Shown in pieces: positions 1,418-41,880 of a stretch of DNA of 41,880 bases. The notes under the pieces were generated by a model. It did no database searches and was not told where the DNA came from. It saw only the letters and a program-made list of their open reading frames with translations. Origin of the DNA: Omnitrophica bacterium GWA2_41_15 (lineage in GTDB: Bacteria; Omnitrophota; Gorgyraeia; Gygaellales; UBA12090); NCBI GenBank assembly GCA_919902675.1, contig CAKKRH010000030.1:1-41880 (forward strand), read 5' to 3'. A program made the translations under genes and the position numbers. Position 1 is the stretch's first letter, and each line of letters begins with the position of its first letter.

Positions 1418-3220
1418 ATGACTAAAAAAGCTGTTTCAGGCGGACTAAATACCAGGGTTTATTATTTATTTATTTTTATAACTTTTATCTTTTTCCTCTT
1501 GACCGGAGTTGTGGTTTTTGCCCGGACCAAGGCTATAATCAAGAATTTTATTTTTAATGAGCTGGGCTATTTTATTCAGAATGTTGACGCCAGGATTGAC
1601 CTTTTTATTGAGGCCAAAAAAGGCCGGGCCCTGGATTTTTGTTCCGACGGCATCATTAAAGACGGGCTTACCTATTACGATCCCGACGATAAAGACGTGG
1701 ATAAACTCCGTCAGCAGATTGATGATCATTTGGCTAAAAACAAGGTGGTGCTGGATGCCCAGCTTGAGGACACCCTTATCCTTAACCTTAAGGGAAAGGT
1801 TATTTTTTCCAATAATGAGCGGAATATTGGAAAGGATAAATCGCGAGAAGAATATTTCAGGCAGATCAGTCGTTATTTTAAAGATCAGGCGGTTTTAAAG
1901 AAACTCCGCCGCAATCCTACTTCTACAGTTTATGCCGGTGATGTCTATGTTTCTGAAGACCTGAATGCCCCGGCTTTGGCGGTTTCCAATATTATTACTG
2001 CCCGGGCTACCGGACTTCCTCTGGGGGTCCTGGTTAACCGCTACCGGCTGGATGTCCTGATAAAATCCATAGAGATACGCGAGGCCGCGATGGGAAATAC
2101 AGGCAAGTTTTACCTGATTAATAAAGACGGGCTTTTGCTTAACATACCAAAATTTTTTCCCTCCGGGAAAAAAGAAGATATAATTTTAAAAGAAAGGATA
2201 GATATTCCGGTGGCGATCACCATCTTGGAGGATTCGGTTAAAATGTTAGGCGTATACCGGGATTTCCGCGCCGAGCCGGTTCTGGGAGCGGCAATGTTGA
2301 TGAAAAGAAATAACTGGTTGATTATCGCGGAAAAAGATACCCGGGAGGCATTCGCCCCTCTTTACAGCTTAACCTGGCAGATGATTTTTATCGGCTTGGC
2401 CGCTTTAGTGGTGATTGTCGGGGTATTCTTATTTATTATCCGCCTGCATAAAAAAGTAGATGAAAAAAACCGGGAATTAGAGGATTCCCGCAATAAGATG
2501 TTTCAAAGCGGAAAGCTGGCCGCGGTGGGGCAATTGGCCAGCAGTGTGGCCCATGAGATTAACAATCCGCTTACCGGTGTTTTAAACAATGTCCAGTTGA
2601 TTAAGATGGAGATGGAGATGGGGGCGGATTTTAAGGTTACGGATTTCAAAGAGCAGTTGGATGTGATTGAGGAGTCGGCCTCCCGGTGCGTGAAAATAGC
2701 CCGCTCTTTATTGGATTTCTCCCGTGCCGCCAAGGGGACATTCCAGCCTTTTTCCCTGAATGAGGCGGTAGAGAAGACCATAACCTTAATCGGCCACGAA
2801 CTAAAATTGCGTGATGTCTCGGTAAAAAAAGAGCTGGGGGAAAATCTTCCCCGGATTCAAGGCGATACCCAGCTCATCCAGCAGGTCATCTTTGATATTG
2901 TTAATAACGCCAGATACGCCATAGAAAAAAACCCCAAAAAAGAAGCCGGGCTGATAATCTTAAAAACCCGCTATGATATGGTTAAGGATCTGGTTTTGCT
3001 TTCCATCTCTGACAACGGCACGGGAATCTCTCCGGAAAATCTGGATAAACTTTTCACCCCGTTTTTTACCACTAAGCCGGTTGGTGAGGGTACCGGATTG
3101 GGCCTGTCTTTTATCCAGGACATTGTGAAGAGGCATAACGGTAAAGTTTCAGTGGAAAGCGAATTAGGCAAAGGAACGACTTTTCATATTTCTTTTCCGG
3201 TGATAAAGGAGAATAAATGA
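1418..3220 (+). CDS. Membrane sensor histidine kinase with extracytoplasmic (Cache-like) sensor, NtrB-like core
   Basis: N-terminal TM (YYLFIFITFIFFLLTGVVVF), second TM (MIFIGLAALVVIVGVFLFII), H-box VAHEINNPLTGVLNN, GTGLGLSF; upstream AAGGAAAG. Confidence 0.9.
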   Translation: MTKKAVSGGLNTRVYYLFIFITFIFFLLTGVVVFARTKAIIKNFIFNELGYFIQNVDARIDLFIEAKKGRALDFCSDGIIKDGLTYYDPDDKDVDKLRQQIDDHLAKNKVVLDAQLEDTLILNLKGKVIFSNNERNIGKDKSREEYFRQISRYFKDQAVLKKLRRNPTSTVYAGDVYVSEDLNAPALAVSNIITARATGLPLGVLVNRYRLDVLIKSIEIREAAMGNTGKFYLINKDGLLLNIPKFFPSGKKEDIILKERIDIPVAITILEDSVKMLGVYRDFRAEPVLGAAMLMKRNNWLIIAEKDTREAFAPLYSLTWQMIFIGLAALVVIVGVFLFIIRLHKKVDEKNRELEDSRNKMFQSGKLAAVGQLASSVAHEINNPLTGVLNNVQLIKMEMEMGADFKVTDFKEQLDVIEESASRCVKIARSLLDFSRAAKGTFQPFSLNEAVEKTITLIGHELKLRDVSVKKELGENLPRIQGDTQLIQQVIFDIVNNARYAIEKNPKKEAGLIILKTRYDMVKDLVLLSISDNGTGISPENLDKLFTPFFTTKPVGEGTGLGLSFIQDIVKRHNGKVSVESELGKGTTFHISFPVIKENK

Positions 3221-3957
3221 CAGAAAAGACTAAATTGAAAGTGTTGGTAGTTGACGATGAAAAGGTGATTCGGGACTTCTTGAGCCGTTTTTTAAGCCTG
3301 CAATTGGCCCAGGTGAAGACCGCCGCCGACGGAGAAACGGCCATAGAGCTGGCCAAAACCGAGGAATTTGATTTGGTGTTTTTGGATATCCGGATGCCCA
3401 AGACCAACGGCCTGGAAACATTCGGGGAACTGAAGAAGATAACTCCGGATATAGCCTGCGTGTTTATGACCGGGTATGCCTCAGCCGAAGAGGATTTGAT
3501 TAACAAGATTAAATATGAAGGGATTATGTGCGTGCGCAAGCCCTTTGAGAATTTAAATAAGATAAAAGAGATAGTGGAGAATGTGCTTAAGGAGGCCAGC
3601 CTTGTGCCGGATAAAAAAGAGAGTGATCCTAAGGAGAAAAGGGCCTATCGGCGCTTTGATATGGTTTTAGAAGTAGACTACCGGATAAAAGGTAAGACAG
3701 GCGCTTTTAGCCATTGCCTAAGCAATAATATTTCCCTGGGAGGAATAAGGCTTTTAGCGCCTGATGAGTTTTCTCTGGGGACAAAATTGGATTTGGTTAT
3801 CAAGAGCCCGGACAATAAAAATACCTGCGCGGTTCCCGGCGAGGTGGTCTGGGTGAGAAAATCCGAGAGCAAGGCCGGCCATTACGAGGCGGGAATAAAA
3901 TTCAGCGAAATAAATATTAATCAGTTGTCCGGGCTGATGATGTCAATAACTGAATAA
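3217..3957 (+). CDS. Response regulator receiver (REC) + PilZ domain protein
   Basis: REC: VLVVDDEKVIRDF, VFLDIRMPK, CVRKPF. C-terminal PilZ-like RRAYRRFDMVLEVDYRIK...NISLGGIRLL. Confidence 0.85.
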   Translation: MTEKTKLKVLVVDDEKVIRDFLSRFLSLQLAQVKTAADGETAIELAKTEEFDLVFLDIRMPKTNGLETFGELKKITPDIACVFMTGYASAEEDLINKIKYEGIMCVRKPFENLNKIKEIVENVLKEASLVPDKKESDPKEKRAYRRFDMVLEVDYRIKGKTGAFSHCLSNNISLGGIRLLAPDEFSLGTKLDLVIKSPDNKNTCAVPGEVVWVRKSESKAGHYEAGIKFSEININQLSGLMMSITE

Positions 3958-4087
3958 ACACTAAATTCTAAACTCTAAATCCTAAACAAACCCAAAAGCT
4001 AAAATCCTAAATCCAAAACACATGTTTTGAGTTTTGTATTTATAGTTTTGAGTTTGTTTAGAGTTTAGAATTTCGGGTTTAGAGTTT
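3955..4087 (+). repeat. 133-bp heptad-type intergenic element, copy A
   Basis: TAAACACTAAATTCTAAACTCTAAATCC...TTTCGGGTTTAGAGTTT; near-identical reverse-complement copy at 32574-32706 (5 mismatches by eye). Confidence 0.9.
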
Positions 4088-4115: not shown

Positions 4116-4859
4116 ATGGCTGATACGAAAATCAAGGTTTTGGTAGTTGACGATGAAAAGATTATCCGGGATTTTTTTGCCCGGCTTTTATCTTTGCAGG
4201 GATTAGAGGTTGTTGAGGCCGAAGACGGCTATAAGGCCTCAGAACTTGCCAAGGCAGGTAAGTTTGACCTTTATTTTATTGATGTGCGCATGCCCGGATT
4301 GGACGGATTGGAAACCTTCCGCAAGGTAAGGCAGGTTCATCCTGAGGCGCTAGTTGTGATGATGACCGGTTACGCCTTGGATAATATTTTAGAGCAGGCC
4401 CAGAAGGAAGGGGCATCCGGCTCCATCCGCAAACCCTTTGCTATAGGTGAGATAAAAGGCATCGTGGAGAAGGCCTCCCGGGAAAGAAACAAGGGGGCTT
4501 CCAATATTTTAGTCATTGATGATGATCAAGCGGTGCTTAATTTCTTCGGTAATTTTTTAAAGGCCAAGGACCAGAAATACAGCCTGATAAATAATGCCCA
4601 AGGCGCTTTAGAACTTATTCAAAGAGAGAAATTTGATTTGGTCTTCTTGGATTTGGTGCTTAAGAAGGATGATGGTTTAGAGCTCTATAAAAAGATTAAG
4701 GAAGCCATGCCCCAGGCGGAGCTGGTGATAATTACCGGATATCACGATAAAGCTCGAGAAATTGAAGGCAGGCCCGATATCAGCGGTTTTCTTTATAAAC
4801 CCTTTGAGATTGAGGGGATAATCAAATATATTGAAAAAATAAAAAATGACCGAAGTTGA
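4116..4859 (+). CDS. Tandem two-REC response regulator
   Basis: Two receiver modules (VLVVDDEKIIRDF...FIDVRMPG; ILVIDDDQAVLNF...VFLDLVLKK...LYKPF). Confidence 0.85.
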   Translation: MADTKIKVLVVDDEKIIRDFFARLLSLQGLEVVEAEDGYKASELAKAGKFDLYFIDVRMPGLDGLETFRKVRQVHPEALVVMMTGYALDNILEQAQKEGASGSIRKPFAIGEIKGIVEKASRERNKGASNILVIDDDQAVLNFFGNFLKAKDQKYSLINNAQGALELIQREKFDLVFLDLVLKKDDGLELYKKIKEAMPQAELVIITGYHDKAREIEGRPDISGFLYKPFEIEGIIKYIEKIKNDRS

Positions 4860-6393
4860 CAGCCTTAAAGAGGAAAACCAGCGCCTGCGCGACGAGCTCA
4901 ACGACCGGATTTTTGAGCTGTCCATACTTTATGATATCTCTAACAGCATCAGCTATACCTTAAATTATGAGGATTTTATGAAGATTATGGCTGATTCCCT
5001 GAATAGGATTATTGATTACGACCTCTGCAGTTCCTTGCTTATACTCGACGGAGAAAAGGCCAGGATGATAATCCGCGCGGCCCATCCCGTAAAGAGGGAT
5101 ATCTTTGAGGAAGTTAAGAATAATGTGATCGCTTCTTTAAATTCGCTTCGGCCAAGAGCTATTTCCGGTGAGGAGATTGAGTTTGAGGTCAGGGGAGAGA
5201 TTCTGGATGATAAGAGAAGCGAAGGCGAACGGATAGTTTCTTCTTTTGACGTGCCTTTGTTTGTGCGTCAGGAGGCGGTGGGGATATTAAATGTGGCCGC
5301 GGTCAGGGACATCGCCTATTCGGATGAGGAGATAAAACTGCTTTATACCCTGGCCTCCCAGGCCTCCGCGGCTATTGAAAGGTTGCAGGCGGTATTATCC
5401 GCGGAAAAGAGCAAGATGAAGGTGATGGTGGAGAGGATGTCTGAGGGGGTGGCGATGTTTGACGAAAAAGATGAGCTGGTGATTGTCAATTCCGCCTTTA
5501 ATGAGATGACCGGAGGCGACTTAAGCCTGTTGGGTGAGCTGGATGAGATAAAGAAGCGCCGCAAACAGCCGAAGGTTCTGGATATTCATTTGGAAAAACC
5601 GTTTCCGCGGGTAATTAACAGCGAATCAGCCTGTATTGAGGACGATAATGGCCGGTATCTGGGGATAGTAATGCTCTTGAGGGATGTAAGCAAGGAGCGG
5701 GAGATTGAACAGATGAAGTCGGATTTTGTTTCGCTGGTTTCCCACGAACTGCGCACGCCCCTGGTAGCCATAAAGGGAGCGGCGGATAATCTCTTAGACG
5801 GCCTGGCGGGTGAGTTAAACGATATTCAGAAGGATTGTCTGGTTCTTTCCAAACGTAACATTGACCGCTTAAACCGGTTGATTTCCGACCTTTTGGATAT
5901 ATCCCGGATTGAAGCCGGAAAGATTCAACTTAACAAACAGCCGGCGGATGCCGCTTCTATAGTTAAGGACGTGTTGGGTTTATTTCAGGCAAGCGCGAAA
6001 GAGAAAAACATCGCTTTGGAGTCATTACTGCCTGAGGAGCTTCCCTTAGTTACGATTGATTCGGATAAGATTAATCAGGTGCTTACCAATTTAGTGGGTA
6101 ATGCCTTGAAGTTTACTCCCGCCCAGGGTAAAATAATGATCAAGGTTTTTCGCGCGGAGAACTTCTTGCGGGTAGAGGTGAGGGATACCGGAGTAGGTAT
6201 CCCTAAGCAGGATCTGGAGAAGGTTTTTGACAAATTTTATCAGGTGGACCGCAATAAGAGTTTTACCTCGGTTAAAGGTACCGGCTTGGGGCTTCCTATA
6301 TCTAAAGGCATTGTGGAAAGGCACGGAGGCAAAATCTGGGCCGAGAGCGAGGCGGGAGAGGGAAGTAAATTCATTTTCACCCTTCCTGTTTAA
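4846..6393 (+). CDS. GAF-PAS sensor histidine kinase (PhoR/WalK-like core)
   Basis: FVSLVSHELRTPLVAIKGAADNL, NLVGNALKFTP, DTGVGIPKQDLEKVFDKFYQVD, GTGLGLPISKGIV; start overlaps upstream gene. Confidence 0.9.
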   Translation: MTEVDSLKEENQRLRDELNDRIFELSILYDISNSISYTLNYEDFMKIMADSLNRIIDYDLCSSLLILDGEKARMIIRAAHPVKRDIFEEVKNNVIASLNSLRPRAISGEEIEFEVRGEILDDKRSEGERIVSSFDVPLFVRQEAVGILNVAAVRDIAYSDEEIKLLYTLASQASAAIERLQAVLSAEKSKMKVMVERMSEGVAMFDEKDELVIVNSAFNEMTGGDLSLLGELDEIKKRRKQPKVLDIHLEKPFPRVINSESACIEDDNGRYLGIVMLLRDVSKEREIEQMKSDFVSLVSHELRTPLVAIKGAADNLLDGLAGELNDIQKDCLVLSKRNIDRLNRLISDLLDISRIEAGKIQLNKQPADAASIVKDVLGLFQASAKEKNIALESLLPEELPLVTIDSDKINQVLTNLVGNALKFTPAQGKIMIKVFRAENFLRVEVRDTGVGIPKQDLEKVFDKFYQVDRNKSFTSVKGTGLGLPISKGIVERHGGKIWAESEAGEGSKFIFTLPV

Positions 6394-6500
6394 ACTCTAA
6401 ACTCTAAACCCGAAACTCTAAACAAACTCAAATATTTAAACCTAAAATCCAAAACAAAATAAACATAGAATTTTGTGTTTTGGGTTTACTTTTAATTTTA
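6391..6500. repeat. Heptad-type intergenic element, degenerate copy B
   Basis: TAAACTCTAAACTCTAAACCCGAAACTCTAAACAAACTCAAA then TTTTGTGTTTTGGGTTTA; right arm shortened. Confidence 0.65.
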
Positions 6501-6511
6501 TAGGTGCTGCT

Positions 6512-8152: not shown

Positions 8153-8186
8153 TTTAAAACTCCCTAAACCCTAAATCCAAAATCCT

Positions 8187-8346
8187 AAACTCTAAACAAA
8201 CTCAAAATGATAAATTCAAAACTCAAATATAATGTTTTGGGTTTGGAAAATTTTTATTTTGGATTTGTTTAGGATTTATGGTTTAGTGTTTAGAGCTTAT
8301 CTTTTATGTTCAGTATTTAAAGTTTTAAATTCAAATTATGAAGAAA
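8187..8346 (+). repeat. ~160-bp direct repeat, copy C (upstream of gspI, includes its ATGAAGAAA)
   Basis: AAACTCTAAACAAACTCAAAATGATAAA...CAGTATTTAAAGTTTTAAATTCAAATTATGAAGAAA; matches 8753-8913 with about 7 differences. Confidence 0.9.
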
Positions 8347-8727
8347 GAAGCGCGCGGGTTTACCCTAATTGAGGTATTGGTTACTACCGCGGTTTTATCT
8401 TTAGGTATAGTGCTTATCTACCGGGCATTTTTTACCCTGCTGGATTCCTTTGGTTATTACAGCAATTATTTGAGGGTAGCTGCTTTTGCCGATGAAAAAC
8501 TCTGGCAGGCCCAGGACGCCTTAAGTTGTTTCGGCCCTGATGCCGGGGCAGGGTCCTCGGGCAGGCTGAATATCCAGAATAAGGATTTTAACTGGAGGCT
8601 TTCGGTTAGTCCGATTGAAGCGGAAAGCCTATACAGGATAGATTTGGCAGTAAGCTGGCGCCAAGGCCCCAGGACAAGAGAGCTTTCTAGAAACGGTTAC
8701 GCCTTGTATATCAAGAAAGAATCCTAA
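8338..8727 (+). CDS. gspI: Type II secretion minor pseudopilin (GspI-like)
   Basis: RGFTLIEVLVTTAVLSLGIVLIYRAF; position in gspG-I-J-K order. Confidence 0.75.
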   Translation: MKKEARGFTLIEVLVTTAVLSLGIVLIYRAFFTLLDSFGYYSNYLRVAAFADEKLWQAQDALSCFGPDAGAGSSGRLNIQNKDFNWRLSVSPIEAESLYRIDLAVSWRQGPRTRELSRNGYALYIKKES

Positions 8728-8752
8728 AAATAAACCCGAAACCCGAAACCCG

Positions 8753-8913
8753 AAACTCTAAACAAACTCAAAATGATAAACTCAAAACTCAAAATAAAAT
8801 GTTTTAGGTTTGGAAAATTTTTATTTTGGATTTGTTTAGGATTTATGGTTTAGTGTTTAGAGTTTATCTTTTATGTTCAGTATTTAGAGTTTTAAATTTA
8901 AATTATGAAGAAA
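8753..8913 (+). repeat. ~160-bp direct repeat, copy D (upstream of gspJ, includes its ATGAAGAAA)
   Basis: See copy C; one 1-bp indel plus several substitutions. Confidence 0.9.
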
Positions 8914-9480
8914 ACTGCTCCCGCGTTCACCCTCATTGAGCTGTGTTTAGTAAGCCTAATAGCTTCAGTGATCGGCCTGGCGGTGTATTTTACTTTTAGT
9001 AATGGGATGAGAATCTGGCAGAAGGCAAATCAGAAAGTTGTTGAGGAGGATTTAAGCATATTTTTTGACCGATTTGCATCAGATGTAAGAAGCTGCCTGA
9101 AATTTTCCGGCTTGGGTTTTTTAGGGACCAAGGAGAGACTTGAGATTGCTTCTTTAGTGGTGAGCCCTTATTTGAGAAATAAGACTATAGGCCGGGTGGC
9201 TTACTTTTATGAACCGAAGAGTAAAGCCTTATTCAGGGAGGAGAATGACCTCAGCCGGATATTCGAAGGCAAACAAGGAATAGCGAAAGGGATTTTAGAA
9301 AATTTAAATTCTTTGAAGTTCGGGTATTACTTTTATGATAAAGAGAAAAAAGAATATGTCTGGCTTGAGGATGCTACTCTTGAGGGATTGCCGCTGGCGG
9401 TGAGAATAGAATTTGAGCTTGACACTCAGGGTTCAGCCGGCAGGTTTGCCAGGACGGTGAGTATTCCTATCGGCGGATAG
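8905..9480 (+). CDS. gspJ: Type II secretion minor pseudopilin GspJ-like
   Basis: PAFTLIELCLVSLIASVIGLAVYFTFSNGMRIW; length and order typical of GspJ. Confidence 0.75.
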   Translation: MKKTAPAFTLIELCLVSLIASVIGLAVYFTFSNGMRIWQKANQKVVEEDLSIFFDRFASDVRSCLKFSGLGFLGTKERLEIASLVVSPYLRNKTIGRVAYFYEPKSKALFREENDLSRIFEGKQGIAKGILENLNSLKFGYYFYDKEKKEYVWLEDATLEGLPLAVRIEFELDTQGSAGRFARTVSIPIGG

Positions 9481-9513
9481 TTTAGTTGACGGTTGACAGA
9501 TGACAGTTCACAG
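9481..9513. repeat. GTTGACAG/GTTCACAG-type short element
   Basis: AGTTGACGGTTGACAGATGACAGTTCACAG. Confidence 0.6.
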
Positions 9514-9575
9514 AAAAAACATTCTTCCATTACGTGTTTTTGTATTAATTGTTGACTATTTTATATTTTGCGCTT

Positions 9576-10589: not shown

Positions 10590-10622
10590 TTTAGTTCACG
10601 GTTCACAGTTAACAGTTCATAG
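10590..10622. repeat. GTTCACAG-type short element
   Basis: TTTAGTTCACGGTTCACAGTTAACAGTTCATAG. Confidence 0.6.
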
Positions 10623-13107: not shown

Positions 13108-13180
13108 GCTGGAGTAGCTCAGTTGGTAGAGCACGTCCTTGGTAAGGACGGGGTCACGGGTTCGATTCCCGTCTCCAGCT
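13108..13180 (+). tRNA. tRNA-Thr (anticodon GGT)
   Basis: GCTGGAG...CTCCAGC acceptor, TAGCTCAGTTGGTAGA D-arm, CGTCC-TTGGTAA-GGACG anticodon arm, GGTTCGATTCC T-arm. Confidence 0.95.
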
Positions 13181-13402: not shown

Positions 13403-13406
13403 TTCT

Positions 13407-13429
13407 AGTTCACAGTTGGCAGTTCACAG
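13407..13429. repeat. GTTCACAG-type short element
   Basis: AGTTCACAGTTGGCAGTTCACAG. Confidence 0.6.
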
Positions 13430-13463
13430 AGATAGACCGTATCTTTTTTTTAAGGCAAGGCTT

Positions 13464-14312: not shown

Positions 14313-14456
14313 TATAAATCCTAAATCCGAAACCATAAACCCTAAACAAACCCAAATGTCAAAACTTAAAACCCAAAACAAAAAATAAGAAATAAACCTT
14401 TGTGTTTTGAGTTTATAGTTTCGGATTTGTTTAGAATTTAGGGTTTAGGGTTTGAA
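14313..14456. repeat. Heptad-type intergenic element, copy E (before rplK)
   Basis: AAATCCTAAATCCGAAACCATAAACCCTAAACAAACCCAAA ... TTTATAGTTTCGGATTTGTTTAGAATTTAGGGTTTAGGGTTTGAA, imperfect inverted repeat. Confidence 0.75.
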
Positions 14457-16545: not shown

Positions 16546-16627
16546 TTTGTAGAGTTTGTTGAGTTATAGAGTTTGTTGAGTGGAATTTGCGAAAGATTCA
16601 TACAAACGTACAAGGATAATAATCAAA

Positions 16628-29842: not shown

Positions 29843-30502
29843 ATGCAAAAATCAAAAAGACAATCTAAAGACAAAAAAGACATATCGGAAACCATAGCGG
29901 TATACAATAACCAGGGTAAGAAGATTGAAGAGCTTCCTTCAATCTTTAATGGTCCGCTTAAGCCCGCGGTAGTATCGCAAGCCGTCACGATGTATCTGGC
30001 CAATCAAAGACACGGGTTGGCCTCTACCAAGACAATCGGCGAAGTTTCCGGCGGCGGCAAGAAGCCTTGGAAACAGAAGGGAACAGGCAGGGCCAGGGCC
30101 GGTTCAATCCGTTCACCCTTATGGAGGCACGGAGGTGTTGTTTTTGGCCCGCACCCGAAAGATTTTCATTATACCCTATCGGCAAAACTCAGGGATGCCG
30201 CTTTACGTTCAGTCTTGAACGAAAAAAACCTAAACGGCGATATATTAGTCCTGGAAAAATTAGAAATAGCAAGACCCAAAACCAGAGAGATAAAAAATTT
30301 ATTGGAGAGTCTAAATATAAAAGCAAAAACCCTTTTGGTTTTACCGAAAGCCGATCATAACCTGAAGCTCGCGATTAAGAATATGACGGACGTAGAGTCG
30401 GTATTGGCGCAAGGCCTGAACGCGCTTGATTGCCTTAAAGCCGGAAAGATTATTTTCTCAAAAGAATCTTTAGAGTTATTGAAAAAACGGTTAGAAAAAT
30501 AA
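29843..30502 (+). CDS. rplD: 50S ribosomal protein L4
   Basis: GEVSGGGKKPWKQKGTGRARAGSIRSPLWRHGGVVFGPHPKDF. Confidence 0.96.
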   Translation: MQKSKRQSKDKKDISETIAVYNNQGKKIEELPSIFNGPLKPAVVSQAVTMYLANQRHGLASTKTIGEVSGGGKKPWKQKGTGRARAGSIRSPLWRHGGVVFGPHPKDFHYTLSAKLRDAALRSVLNEKNLNGDILVLEKLEIARPKTREIKNLLESLNIKAKTLLVLPKADHNLKLAIKNMTDVESVLAQGLNALDCLKAGKIIFSKESLELLKKRLEK

Positions 30503-30837: not shown

Positions 30838-30984
30838 AAACACTAAATCCTAAACCATAAACTCTAAACAAACTCAAAATGTCGAAAACACAAAACACAA
30901 AAACAGAAAAAAGTAATATAAATATTTCGCGTTTTGAGTTTATGATTTTGAGTTTGTTTAGGGTTTAGAATTTAGAGTTTGAGT
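30838..30984. repeat. Heptad-type intergenic element, copy F (before rplB)
   Basis: CACTAAATCCTAAACCATAAACTCTAAACAAACTCAAAATG ... TTTGAGTTTGTTTAGGGTTTAGAATTTAGAGTTTGAG. Confidence 0.75.
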
Positions 30985-31016
30985 TTTTTTAATAATAATT
31001 CTAAAGAGTAATAGAA

Positions 31017-32573: not shown

Positions 32574-32706
32574 AAACTCTAAACCCGAAATCCTAAACTC
32601 TAAACAAACTCAAAACCATAAACACAAAACTCAAAACATGTGTTTTGGATTTAGGATTTTAGCTTTTGGGTTTGTTTAGGATTTAGAGTTTAGGATTTAG
32701 GGTTTA
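32574..32706 (-). repeat. 133-bp heptad-type intergenic element, copy G (inverted copy of 3955-4087)
   Basis: Reverse complement aligns over the full 133 bp with copy A, 5 mismatches and no gaps by eye. Confidence 0.9.
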
Positions 32707-36355: not shown

Positions 36356-36410
36356 TTAGTTGTTTGAGTTAATTGAGTCTATTGCGTTATCGAGTTAAAT
36401 TCAAGAATAA

Positions 36411-36470
36411 CTCAACAAACTCAACAAACTCAACAAACTCAACAAACTCAACAAACTCAACAAACTCAAA
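36411..36470 (+). repeat. Tandem 9-mer array CTCAACAAA x6 plus partial unit, abutting rplF start
   Basis: 60 nt of uninterrupted CTCAACAAA units ending CTCAAA, then TT-ATG of rplF. Confidence 0.95.
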
Positions 36471-38369: not shown

Positions 38370-38390
38370 AGTTAAATCCAAAAAAACAAA

Positions 38391-38462
38391 CTCAACAAAC
38401 TCAACAAACTCAACAAACTCAACAAACTCAACAAACTCAATAAACTCAATAAACTCAATAAC
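38391..38462 (+). repeat. Tandem 9-mer array CTCAACAAA x5 + CTCAATAAA-type x3, abutting secY start
   Basis: 72 nt of 9-nt units ending 5 nt before secY ATG. Confidence 0.95.
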
Positions 38463-38467
38463 TCTAA

Positions 38468-39808
38468 ATGCTGGGCGCTTTTAAGAATATATTTAAGATT
38501 CAGGATTTAAAGCACAAGGTTATAATTACCTTGGCCTTAATAGCGGTTTACCGCGTAGGCGGCTTTATTCCTGTTCCCGGAATTGATTCTCAGGCCTTAG
38601 CCGAGTTCTTTGACAGAATTGCCAAAAGCCAGGGTGGGTCAATCTTAGGGATCATGAATATGTTTTCCGGAGGTTCTCTGGAAAAATTGACTATCTTTGC
38701 CCTGGGGATAATGCCTTATATCTCTAGTTCAATAATAATCCAGCTCTTAACCGCGGTTATTCCGGCTTTGGAAAAAATTTCTAAAGAAGGAAGAGCCGGC
38801 CACCAAAAGATAAATCAGTATACCCGTTATGCCACGGTGGGCCTGGCCCTAATTCAGTCATATTTTATCGCCTTATGGCTGGAGCATCCGGGGAGACTTT
38901 TAGAGGGTTTAAGTATTGTGACTGACCCGGGATTAGGTTTTAGATTCATTACCGTGATTACCCTGACCACCGGTACTATTTTTATTATGTGGTTAGGTGA
39001 GCAGGTCCAGGAAAGAGGTATCGGAAACGGCATTTCTTTGATTATTACCGCTGGGATTATTTCGAGTATCCCGGCCGCTGTTCAGCAGCTAATTATGTAT
39101 GTTTCACCTAAAACTCGCCAGCTTCATCCGGCGACTCTGGTGGTTATGGCGGCCTTGCTGGTATTCGTAGTTTTGGCGGTTATCTTTGTTACTCAGGGCC
39201 AGCGCAAGATACCGGTGCAATACGCCAGACGGGTGGTGGGAAGAAAGGTCTTTGGCGGACAATCAACCTACATACCTCTAAAGGTGGATACCTCAGGGGT
39301 AATCGCGATTATCTTTGCCCAATCTATCATTATGTTTCCGGCAACTCTGGCCTCTTTTATTCCCAATCCGGCATTCCAGAGAATGTCTAATTTCCTTATG
39401 CGCGGGCATATAGTCTATACCGCAATGTACGCTCTTTTGATAATTTTCTTTTGCTATTTTTACACGGCTATTGTTTTTAATCCCAAAGACATTTCGGATA
39501 ACTTGAAAAAATACGGCGGTTTTATCCCCGGGATCAGGCCGGGTTCTCCCACTACGGAGTTTCTGGATTTTGTGATGACCAGGATTACTTTGGCCGGCGC
39601 GATATTTATCGCGGTTATTGCTATTTTGCCGGATTTCGTAATGGCCACCCTGAAAGTTCCTTATTTAGTCGCTTCATTCTTCGGCGGAACAGGAATTCTT
39701 ATTGTTGTCGGAGTAATGCTGGACACCCTTAAACAGATCGAATCTCAGCTTTTGATGCGTAACTACGAAGGTTTTATTAAGAGCGGCCGTATCCATGGTA
39801 GACGTTAG
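38468..39808 (+). CDS. secY: Preprotein translocase subunit SecY
   Basis: KVIITLALIAVYRVGGFIPVPGID...GNGISLIITAGIISSIPAAVQQL...YARRVVGRKVFGGQSTYIPLKV. Confidence 0.97.
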   Translation: MLGAFKNIFKIQDLKHKVIITLALIAVYRVGGFIPVPGIDSQALAEFFDRIAKSQGGSILGIMNMFSGGSLEKLTIFALGIMPYISSSIIIQLLTAVIPALEKISKEGRAGHQKINQYTRYATVGLALIQSYFIALWLEHPGRLLEGLSIVTDPGLGFRFITVITLTTGTIFIMWLGEQVQERGIGNGISLIITAGIISSIPAAVQQLIMYVSPKTRQLHPATLVVMAALLVFVVLAVIFVTQGQRKIPVQYARRVVGRKVFGGQSTYIPLKVDTSGVIAIIFAQSIIMFPATLASFIPNPAFQRMSNFLMRGHIVYTAMYALLIIFFCYFYTAIVFNPKDISDNLKKYGGFIPGIRPGSPTTEFLDFVMTRITLAGAIFIAVIAILPDFVMATLKVPYLVASFFGGTGILIVVGVMLDTLKQIESQLLMRNYEGFIKSGRIHGRR

Positions 39809-39858
39809 TGCGCTGTTACATAAAATTTTTAATAACAGCGCACAGAGCAATTGAGCAA
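39805..39858 (+). repeat. TTAGTGCGCTGTTACATAAAATTTTTAATAACAGCGCAC element, copy 1 (overlaps secY stop)
   Basis: 11-bp stem GTGCGCTGTTA/TAACAGCGCAC, then GAGCAATTGAGCAA; second copy at 41826-41880. Confidence 0.9.
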
Positions 39859-39942
39859 TAGAAAATAGAACAATAGACAAACAAAAGCTCAATTGCGGTC
39901 TAATGCTCTATTGTTCAAAAACTAATTTAACGGTGCGCTATA

Positions 39943-40593: not shown

Positions 40594-40628
40594 GGGCCTG
40601 ATAAAAAGCTGTAGGCAATATTTTTTCC

Positions 40629-40657
40629 GTGAACTGTCAACTGCCAACTGTGAACTA
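40629..40657. repeat. GTTCACAG-type inverted repeat directly before map
   Basis: GTGAACTGTCAACTGCCAACTGTGAACTA. Confidence 0.65.
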
Positions 40658-40659
40658 AA

Positions 40660-41406
40660 TTGATTCCTGTAAAGTCAGCTTATGAGCTTAAGGCAATGCG
40701 GGAGGCAGGGGCATTGCTGGCCAAGATAGTTGATAAGATACGCGGTAAAATTAAAACCGGAATATCTACCGAAGAAATTGATAAGATTGCTGAGGAGCTG
40801 ATTCTTGGAGAGGGCGCGCTTCCGGCATTCAAGGGATATCGCGGTTTTCCGGCGAGCGTGTGCGCTTCGCTCAATGAGGAAGTGGTACATGGCATACCTT
40901 CGGGCAGATGCCTGAAGGATGGCGACCTGCTTAAGCTGGATATAGGCATCAACCTTAATGGTTTTTTTTCAGATTACGCCTTTACCTTTGCTATAGGTAA
41001 TATCAGTGGACGCGCCAGACGCCTTATTGAAGCAGCTAAAAAATCCCTGGAGCTGGGTATTCGTGAGGCCAGGGTGAATAACCGCCTTTTTGATATTTCC
41101 TGGGCTATACAGAATTATATAGAATCGCAGGGGTTTTCCGTGGTGAGGGATTTTGTGGGACACGGCATAGGCAGGGATATGCATGAGCCTCCTGAGGTGC
41201 CTAATTTTGGCCAGCCTCATAGCGGACCCTTGTTGCGGGAAGGCATGGTTTTAGCGATTGAGCCGATGGTTAATGCCGGAAATTGGCAGGTTAGAATCAG
41301 TGAAAACGGCTGGACCGCGCTGGCTAAAGACGGATTAGAATCCGCTCACTTCGAACATACTGTGGCGATTACCGCCGCCGGCCCTGAAATATTGACTAAG
41401 GTTTAA
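40660..41406 (+). CDS. map: Methionine aminopeptidase type I
   Basis: IPVKSAYELKAMREAGALLAKI...LKLDIGINLNGFFSDYAFTF...FVGHGIGRDMHEPPEVPNFG; probable TTG start. Confidence 0.95.
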   Translation: MIPVKSAYELKAMREAGALLAKIVDKIRGKIKTGISTEEIDKIAEELILGEGALPAFKGYRGFPASVCASLNEEVVHGIPSGRCLKDGDLLKLDIGINLNGFFSDYAFTFAIGNISGRARRLIEAAKKSLELGIREARVNNRLFDISWAIQNYIESQGFSVVRDFVGHGIGRDMHEPPEVPNFGQPHSGPLLREGMVLAIEPMVNAGNWQVRISENGWTALAKDGLESAHFEHTVAITAAGPEILTKV

Positions 41407-41825: not shown

Positions 41826-41880
41826 TTAGTGCGCTGTTACATAAAATTTTTAATAACAGCGCGAGAGAGCAATTGAGCAA
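41826..41880 (+). repeat. Second copy of TTAGTGCGCTGTTACATAAAATTTTTAATAACAGCGC element (truncated by window end)
   Basis: First 36 bp identical to 39805-39840, then ...GAGCAATTGAGCAA. Confidence 0.9.

Follow-up and report, generated by a model that had tools for sequence, protein, structure and literature searches.

A 133-bp gene-less element at positions 3955-4087 of the window, the 41,880-nt stretch of DNA analyzed here, is probably a MITE-like derivative of a small mobile element that carries an S23 gene. This is the best explanation that we can offer for the element.

Copies of the element in the window and in its genome

The sequence at 3955-4087 aligns with the reverse complement of 32574-32706 over 133 nt with 96% identity, five mismatches, and no gaps, as the original prediction of two opposite-orientation copies had it. 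The E value of the second copy (5.5e-58) excludes chance for this pair. The prediction counted the element as present twice, which is correct for the pair and too low for the family. Searches of its own genome (1.74 Mb in 58 contigs, 80% complete) return 82 matches over both strands, giving about 41 places, and seven copies of this TTTAG type start within the window, at 3955, 6391, 8166, 8732, 14315, 30838, and 32574. A lack of further copies genome-wide, which was to speak against the prediction, is thus contradicted by the search. Like a MITE, the family is built on a short unit that is non-coding, has inverted ends, and is scattered over the genome in many copies. The copies in the window are as follows, with the strand where one is assigned.

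3955-4087, plus strand: TTTAG-type gene-less element, the subject of this study; its first TAA is the stop of the REC-PilZ gene
6391-6510: TTTAG-type copy, left arm complete and right arm degenerate; its TAA is the stop of ORF 4846-6393
8166-8299, minus strand: TTTAG-type gene-less copy, by sequence match to the family
8732-8866, minus strand: TTTAG-type gene-less copy, by sequence match to the family
14315-14453, plus strand: TTTAG-type gene-less copy in the nusG-rplK spacer; retains the S23 start and first codons (MSKLKTQN)
30838-30986, plus strand: TTTAG-type gene-less copy in the rplW-rplB spacer; retains the S23 start and first codons (MSKTQNTK)
32574-32706, minus strand: second TTTAG-type copy, in the rplV-rpsC spacer; 96% identical to 3955-4087

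The predicted overlap with the stop codon of the REC-PilZ gene is borne out, the first TAA of the element (3955-3957) being the stop codon of ORF 3217-3957. The arms of this copy match the arms of three S23 units (L206, L159, and L160). The copies at 8166 and 8732 have their right arm and neighbouring flank in common with each other and with position 96847 of contig C9. As a separate observation, a 149-nt stretch spanning the right half of a heptad element and the beginning of the next gene is duplicated with 91% identity (8225-8373 and 8792-8940), as it would be after local duplication or gene conversion.

Anatomy and folding of the element

The element is a long quasi-palindrome, 110-150 bp in its gene-less form. 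From outside to inside, each arm consists of four heptads AAA[C/T]NCT (AAAYNCT), the core AAACAAAYYCAAAA, and more heptads of the types TAAAYYC and CAAAAYTC, followed by a short loop and the other arm. The commonest outer heptad words are AAACTCT, AAACCCT, AAATCCT, AAACACT, AAATTCT, AAACCAT, and AAACCCG. Because the arms are quasi-complementary, both 133-nt copies are predicted to form a single long hairpin (-46 and -52 kcal/mol, with z of -6.2 and -8.5). The element is asymmetric and has an orientation, as originally claimed, but the accompanying statement that it is not a simple hairpin does not hold, each copy folding as one asymmetric hairpin. In an Rfam search of the window at the gathering score, the only matches are two tRNAs; the element has no match, and no rRNA is found.

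Opposing heptads of a copy differ more than heptads of separate copies do. We class arms by their inner part, re-pair them irrespective of orientation, and repeat the tests on an independent set. Opposing heptads within a copy are 0.712 identical in our genome (29 copies), compared with 0.762 between copies; in other genomes (43 copies), the values are 0.727 and 0.767. None of 3,000 random re-pairings in either set is as low as the observed identity of opposing heptads. In particular, the two arms never agree in the word of the innermost of the four heptads (0 of 29 and 0 of 43 copies, where 19% and 30% are expected), and the mismatch is mostly C opposite T at positions 4 and 5. Shared ancestry of the copies could account for part of this dissimilarity. 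We infer that selection disfavours long palindromes that are perfect and thereby keeps the arms imperfect.

GC-rich palindromes (CTGCCTGCCGGCAGGCAGG; GTCATTCCCGCGGAAGCGGGAATC) are also seen nested in the arms or loop of heptad elements of several phyla. Copies with such nested palindromes include the loop regions on contigs C20 (88257-88410), C44 (29233-29387), and C22 (20560-20687), together with loci L081, L109, and L116.

Full-length units enclose an S23 gene

A 28-nt core pattern (23 fixed bases and five purines) matches 79 stretches in a collection of species-representative genomes. Omnitrophota records are the most numerous. Others are labelled Thermodesulfobacteriota/Deltaproteobacteria, Nitrospirae, Planctomycetota, Bacteroidales, WOR-3, Dehalococcoidia, and NPL-UPA2, and there are several Patescibacteria, including a complete Campbellbacteria chromosome (CP011215); nearly all are MAGs, and single taxon labels may reflect binning errors.

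At two of these loci (L100 and L130), TTTAG-type arms enclose an ORF. A third case lies in G014, a genome of the same order as ours, where arms at C1:1174238-1174303 and 1174638-1174702 surround ORF 1174333-1174620; the same genome also has at least six gene-less copies. All three ORFs score above the Pfam cut-off for PF05635, "23S rRNA-intervening sequence protein". One of them, run against NCBIfam, is assigned to TIGR02436, "four helix bundle protein", and its sole relative by sequence in the PDB is 2RLD. A further S23 protein of this genome matches 2GSC (XCC0516), for which a homopentameric assembly of four-helix bundles has been reported (PMC4990558).

A complete unit, about 465 bp long, reads left heptad arm, one S23 gene, and complementary right heptad arm. 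The start codon of S23 lies within the left arm (...CTAAATAAACCCAA ATG ACC CAA ACT CAA AAC CCA AAA CCA...), and the reading frame is conserved, with 18, 7, and 37 differences at the three codon positions in one ortholog pair. PF05635 is the sole ORF of the parent unit, in which no recombinase domain is found, so that a transposase encoded by the parent, as in a MITE, is missing from it. The full-length units have an S23 ORF between inverted repeats, as IVS-type elements do; the copies in the window are without the ORF. No intact S23 gene with TTTAG-type arms is found in our genome (80% complete), and a search for S23 in phages gives no match.

The architecture bears on the idea that the heptamers arose by plain tandem slippage, with no element behind them. 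Although bacterial simple repeats contain an excess of heptamers (PMC4692102), the arms are inverted, they have a fixed multi-part structure with a non-repeat core (AAACAAAYYCAAAA) common to genomes of many phyla, and they can enclose an S23 gene. Slippage is thus hardly credible as an explanation, and for the TTTAG family it is refuted.

Several gene-less copies retain the beginning of the S23 gene

The copy at 30838 reads ATG TCG AAA ACA CAA AAC ACA AAA, or MSKTQNTK. Gene-less copies on other contigs contain MSQIQNPKP and MLQTQNSKP, which compare with the intact S23 N-termini MTQTQNPKP, MTKTQSSKQ, and MSEIQNPKP. The persistence of the S23 start codon and first codons indicates that these gene-less copies are internally deleted, as MITEs are. 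In addition, their ends are shared with a longer element that does carry the gene (L100, L130, and L206). We conclude that the window element very likely derives from an S23 element.

A second S23 family shows the same process. Between tRNA-Val and tRNA-Asp, our genome (G000) and G006 have an intact S23 gene with TAAGA-type arms; in G001, nothing but the final S23 codons (ENIEVIKILSTIITS) is left between the arms. The G001 unit is a deletion derivative from this other family. The S23 unit between these tRNA genes is kept in G000, G006, and G049 (L152, G006 C34:10097-10694, and L205), which represent two genera of a single family and a second family of the order, and is apparently a stably inherited copy.

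Orthologous sites with and without the element

At nusG-rplK (the names nusG, rplK, guaA, and carB are assigned by reading the sequence), about 175 nt are inserted in our genome precisely at the upstream gene's stop, with TAA on both sides. In G001 and G002, which belong to the same genus, the site is empty and reads GTATAAGATG. The check for empty sites in related genomes thus has a positive outcome, and the family shows presence and absence at an orthologous site, as MITEs do. The 3-nt TAA is a candidate target-site duplication in this one case.

Most genomes of the order have rplW-rplB and rplV-rpsC spacers of between -1 and a few nt, and in nearer relatives these spacers contain assorted heptad-type inserts. 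The same spacer at both loci of the pair in relatives, which would have pointed to an ancestral sequence, is absent from the relatives compared. At guaA-carB, our genome has an S23 unit, G006 a different S23 unit, G001 a different gene-less palindrome, and G002 a short repeat of another type. The element has very likely been mobile in the recent past. The dispersed intergenic copies, the empty sites in relatives, and the longer gene-carrying version together uphold the original reading of a MITE-like non-autonomous element.

The same comparisons weigh against a non-mobile reading, in which selection maintains the heptad palindromes for regulation or processing (as RNase III sites, terminators, or transcript stabilisers) and S23 binds them. 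The strong predicted hairpins and the location of sites between co-transcribed genes are in keeping with it; Geobacter heptad families have been annotated as putative regulator sites (PMC2700814), and an effect on transcript stability has been proposed for cyanobacterial STRRs (PMC2670836). Such a role explains neither the empty nusG-rplK site nor the different or missing elements of close relatives at the same site, and it is at odds with the S23 reading-frame relics in gene-less copies and the lack of an Rfam match. We consider it unlikely as the primary explanation; the palindromes may have a secondary regulatory role.

S23 genes lie between inverted heptad arms of their own

Our genome has seven S23 genes, each beside short-unit repeats of its own sequence family and most with such repeats on both sides. 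For a wider set of 65 S23 loci from about 30 genomes, we score the local alignment of the 5′ flank with the reverse complement of the 3′ flank. The mean score is 21.8, compared with 10.0 for exchanged partners, and the true partner ranks within the top 5% at 57 loci; the other eight have no matching arms by this score. Identity at a lag of 7 nt is 0.432 in the flanks and 0.270 farther away, with more peaks at 14 and 21. Similarity of S23 proteins correlates with similarity of their arms (Mantel r 0.30; permutation maximum 0.115), and the three S23s with TTTAG arms, which are among the best pairs by arm similarity, also have similar proteins. S23 genes thus generally lie between inverted heptad arms, similar proteins with similar arms.

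The association extends to cyanobacterial plasmids, on which ten S23 genes have flanks with 7-nt periodicity (lag-7 identity 0.43). For example, AVA_RS28115 of Trichormus variabilis ATCC 29413 is flanked by AATTCAGAAGTCAGAATTCAGGAGTCAGAA and TTCTGAATTCTGACTCCTGACTCCTGA. By the same score, two or three of the ten loci (L302, L304, and L306) have no conspicuous inverted repeat. As an aside, three plasmid S23 genes (L300, L305, and L306) lie inside CRISPR-Cas clusters, in two cases with cas6 and cas4 on either side and in one with cas10 and a cmr3-like gene. On the scale of whole genomes, an S23 gene of any kind occurs in 10 of 14 genomes with TTTAG elements and in 8 of 17 without them; over these 31 genomes, the two show no clear association.

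Two further readings assign the movement to other machinery. In the first, the element is a REP/BIME-like palindrome moved in trans by a RAYT (a Y1 tyrosine transposase), with S23 as a passenger. Our genome does have six Y1_Tnp genes, and the element is an intergenic hairpin-forming palindrome. However, the flanks of all six Y1 genes are free of heptads and of TTTAG-type cores, and at least four of the six bear other palindromes on both sides (GGGGACACAT and GGTCGCTGTCCC types), so that no Y1 gene of this genome is flanked by the same palindrome as a RAYT gene would be. In addition, each heptad family would require its own adapted RAYT, whereas arm similarity tracks the S23 protein. The suggested dependence on a RAYT accordingly finds no support, and we regard this reading as quite improbable. 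The Y1_Tnp genes (L049-L054), RAYT-like and flanked by inverted GGGGACACATC / GGTCGCTGTCCC sequences, mark a second, independent palindrome system of the genome.

In the second, S23 acts as Avd with a reverse transcriptase, and DGR-like copying explains the degenerate heptads. S23 and Avd are homologous (PMC10053308), and S23 weakly matches bAvd and DivGenRetAVD. No reverse transcriptase (PF00078) is found in G000, G001, G002, G012, or G014, however, which makes this reading very improbable.

Arms of other S23 families in the window

Besides the TTTAG type, gene-less sequences in the window match arms that belong to about five further S23 families.

9481-9517: gene-less array, GTTGACA type (arms of S23 locus L147); 94% over 34 nt
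10590-10622: gene-less array, GTTGACA type, by arm match
13404-13431: gene-less array, GTTGACA type, by arm match
40623-40662: gene-less array, GTTGACA type, by arm match
16547-16581: gene-less array, AACTCAA type (arms of S23 locus L196), by arm match
36358-36470: gene-less array, AACTCAA type, with a 9-nt (AACTCAACA)n run, by arm match
38374-38466: gene-less array, AACTCAA type, with a 9-nt (AACTCAACA)n run, by arm match
39843-39916: gene-less copy, CAATAGA type (5′ arm of L197 and L149); 91%, 76 nt, E 1e-21
1298-1403: gene-less copy, with matches to both arms of S23 locus L182
29825-29869: uncertain weak match to an arm of S23 locus L151 of the same genome; runs into ORF 29843-30502

All but one of 24 arm matches are intergenic, and intergenic DNA makes up 12% of the window. 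Shuffled arms give 0.7 matches on average. A match in the window is obtained with 13 of 116 arms and with 7 of 348 control stretches from the same loci. At 13115-13169, what matches the 5′ flank of L152 is a tRNA gene according to Rfam and is discounted. Two identical 37-nt inverted-repeat sequences (TTAGTGCGCTGTTACATAAAATTTTTAATAACAGCGC) occur at 39805-39841 and 41826-41862; in G001, similar sequences (GCGCTGTTAAATTAATCTTTAACATCGCAGCGC) adjoin CAATAGA-type heptads.

Discussion

In the MITE-like model, loss of the S23 gene body would join both arms into a quasi-palindrome of 110-150 bp. The S23 protein, whose known relatives form homopentameric rings, may recognise the heptad arms of its unit and, together with host enzymes that would perform the DNA chemistry, could act as the trans-acting factor moving full and gene-less copies. 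The imperfect pairing of opposing heptads would keep the palindrome stable in the cell. Insertion would be tolerated because the site is intergenic, often at a stop codon, and the RNA hairpin could be cut or bypassed there, like the 23S rRNA IVS, which is excised by RNase III (PMC4990558).

That S23 is the mobilising factor is plausible, falling a little short of an even balance. Gene-less copies are present in genomes that have no PF05635 match (G012, which is 94% complete, G005, and G007); the cognate S23 therefore need not be resident now, or there is another mover. We know of no catalytic activity of S23 and, since its discovery in 23S rRNA intervening sequences, of no function of S23/IVP proteins.

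More tentatively, and with some doubt, we suggest that S23 units form a separate class of mobile elements without a known transposase or nuclease, mobilised by a heptad-recognising pentamer, with heptameric repeats being largely their debris. Each S23 lineage would then have its own heptad code, read by a ring-shaped pentamer binding tandem heptads, and the STRRs of Nostoc and Calothrix, the Geobacter heptads, and others might be largely S23 debris. We find no description of free-standing S23 elements with heptad arms, or of a link between S23 and heptads, in the open-access literature searched, and there is a serious chance that these elements constitute a new class. S23 proteins and heptamer repeats are connected by the start-codon relics and by the fact that, in several phyla, S23 genes go with inverted heptad arms of their own; both thereby become testable in culturable strains such as Trichormus variabilis ATCC 29413 and Picosynechococcus sp. 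PCC 7003. If S23 does move the units, they would be a mobile element without a recognised recombinase.

Several known systems resemble the units in part. The STRRs of filamentous cyanobacteria are hairpin-forming 7-bp repeats (PMC2670836) and are likewise intergenic hairpins of degenerate heptads; the likeness is one of architecture, not of descent. They were described without an associated gene or mechanism (PMC2670836), and heptads of this kind border the S23 genes on plasmids of Trichormus, Nostoc, and Calothrix. In Geobacter metallireducens, multi-copy intergenic sequences each comprise four or five degenerate heptanucleotides in tandem, and one class (MTYCTGA) is drawn as looped-back strands; these sequences resemble our units in their tandem degenerate heptads and were read as regulator sites or regulatory RNAs (PMC2700814). 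The over-representation of heptamers in bacteria has been reported with no detailed account of it, and GGGAATC-type heptads have been described in the genome that encodes XCC0516 (PMC4692102).

REP/BIME sequences with a RAYT are likewise intergenic palindromes thought to be moved by a trans-acting protein, and differ in that the RAYT genes of our genome bear other palindromes. The Avd protein of diversity-generating retroelements, a ring-shaped pentamer of four-helix bundles, is an S23 homologue (PMC10053308); no template repeat or variable repeat is found in our units, and no reverse transcriptase in the five genomes searched. MITEs are likewise short, non-coding, inverted-repeat, multi-copy, and internally deleted from a longer gene-carrying unit. 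They differ from our elements in their sharp terminal repeats, where ours have degenerate arrays, and the parent unit here is without a recognised transposase.

The 23S rRNA IVSs with an S23p ORF (Coxiella, Leptospira, and others; PMC4990558) likewise have one S23 ORF between inverted repeats. The Coxiella IVS is 428 nt long with a 28-bp stem (PMC4990558), and the units are of like size, about 430-465 nt. Mobility has been suspected for IVSs as well, with the ORF as the mobility component in an earlier proposal cited in PMC4990558. Unlike IVSs, our units lie between protein or tRNA genes and not within the 23S rRNA gene, their arms are degenerate heptad arrays, and they have many gene-less derivatives.
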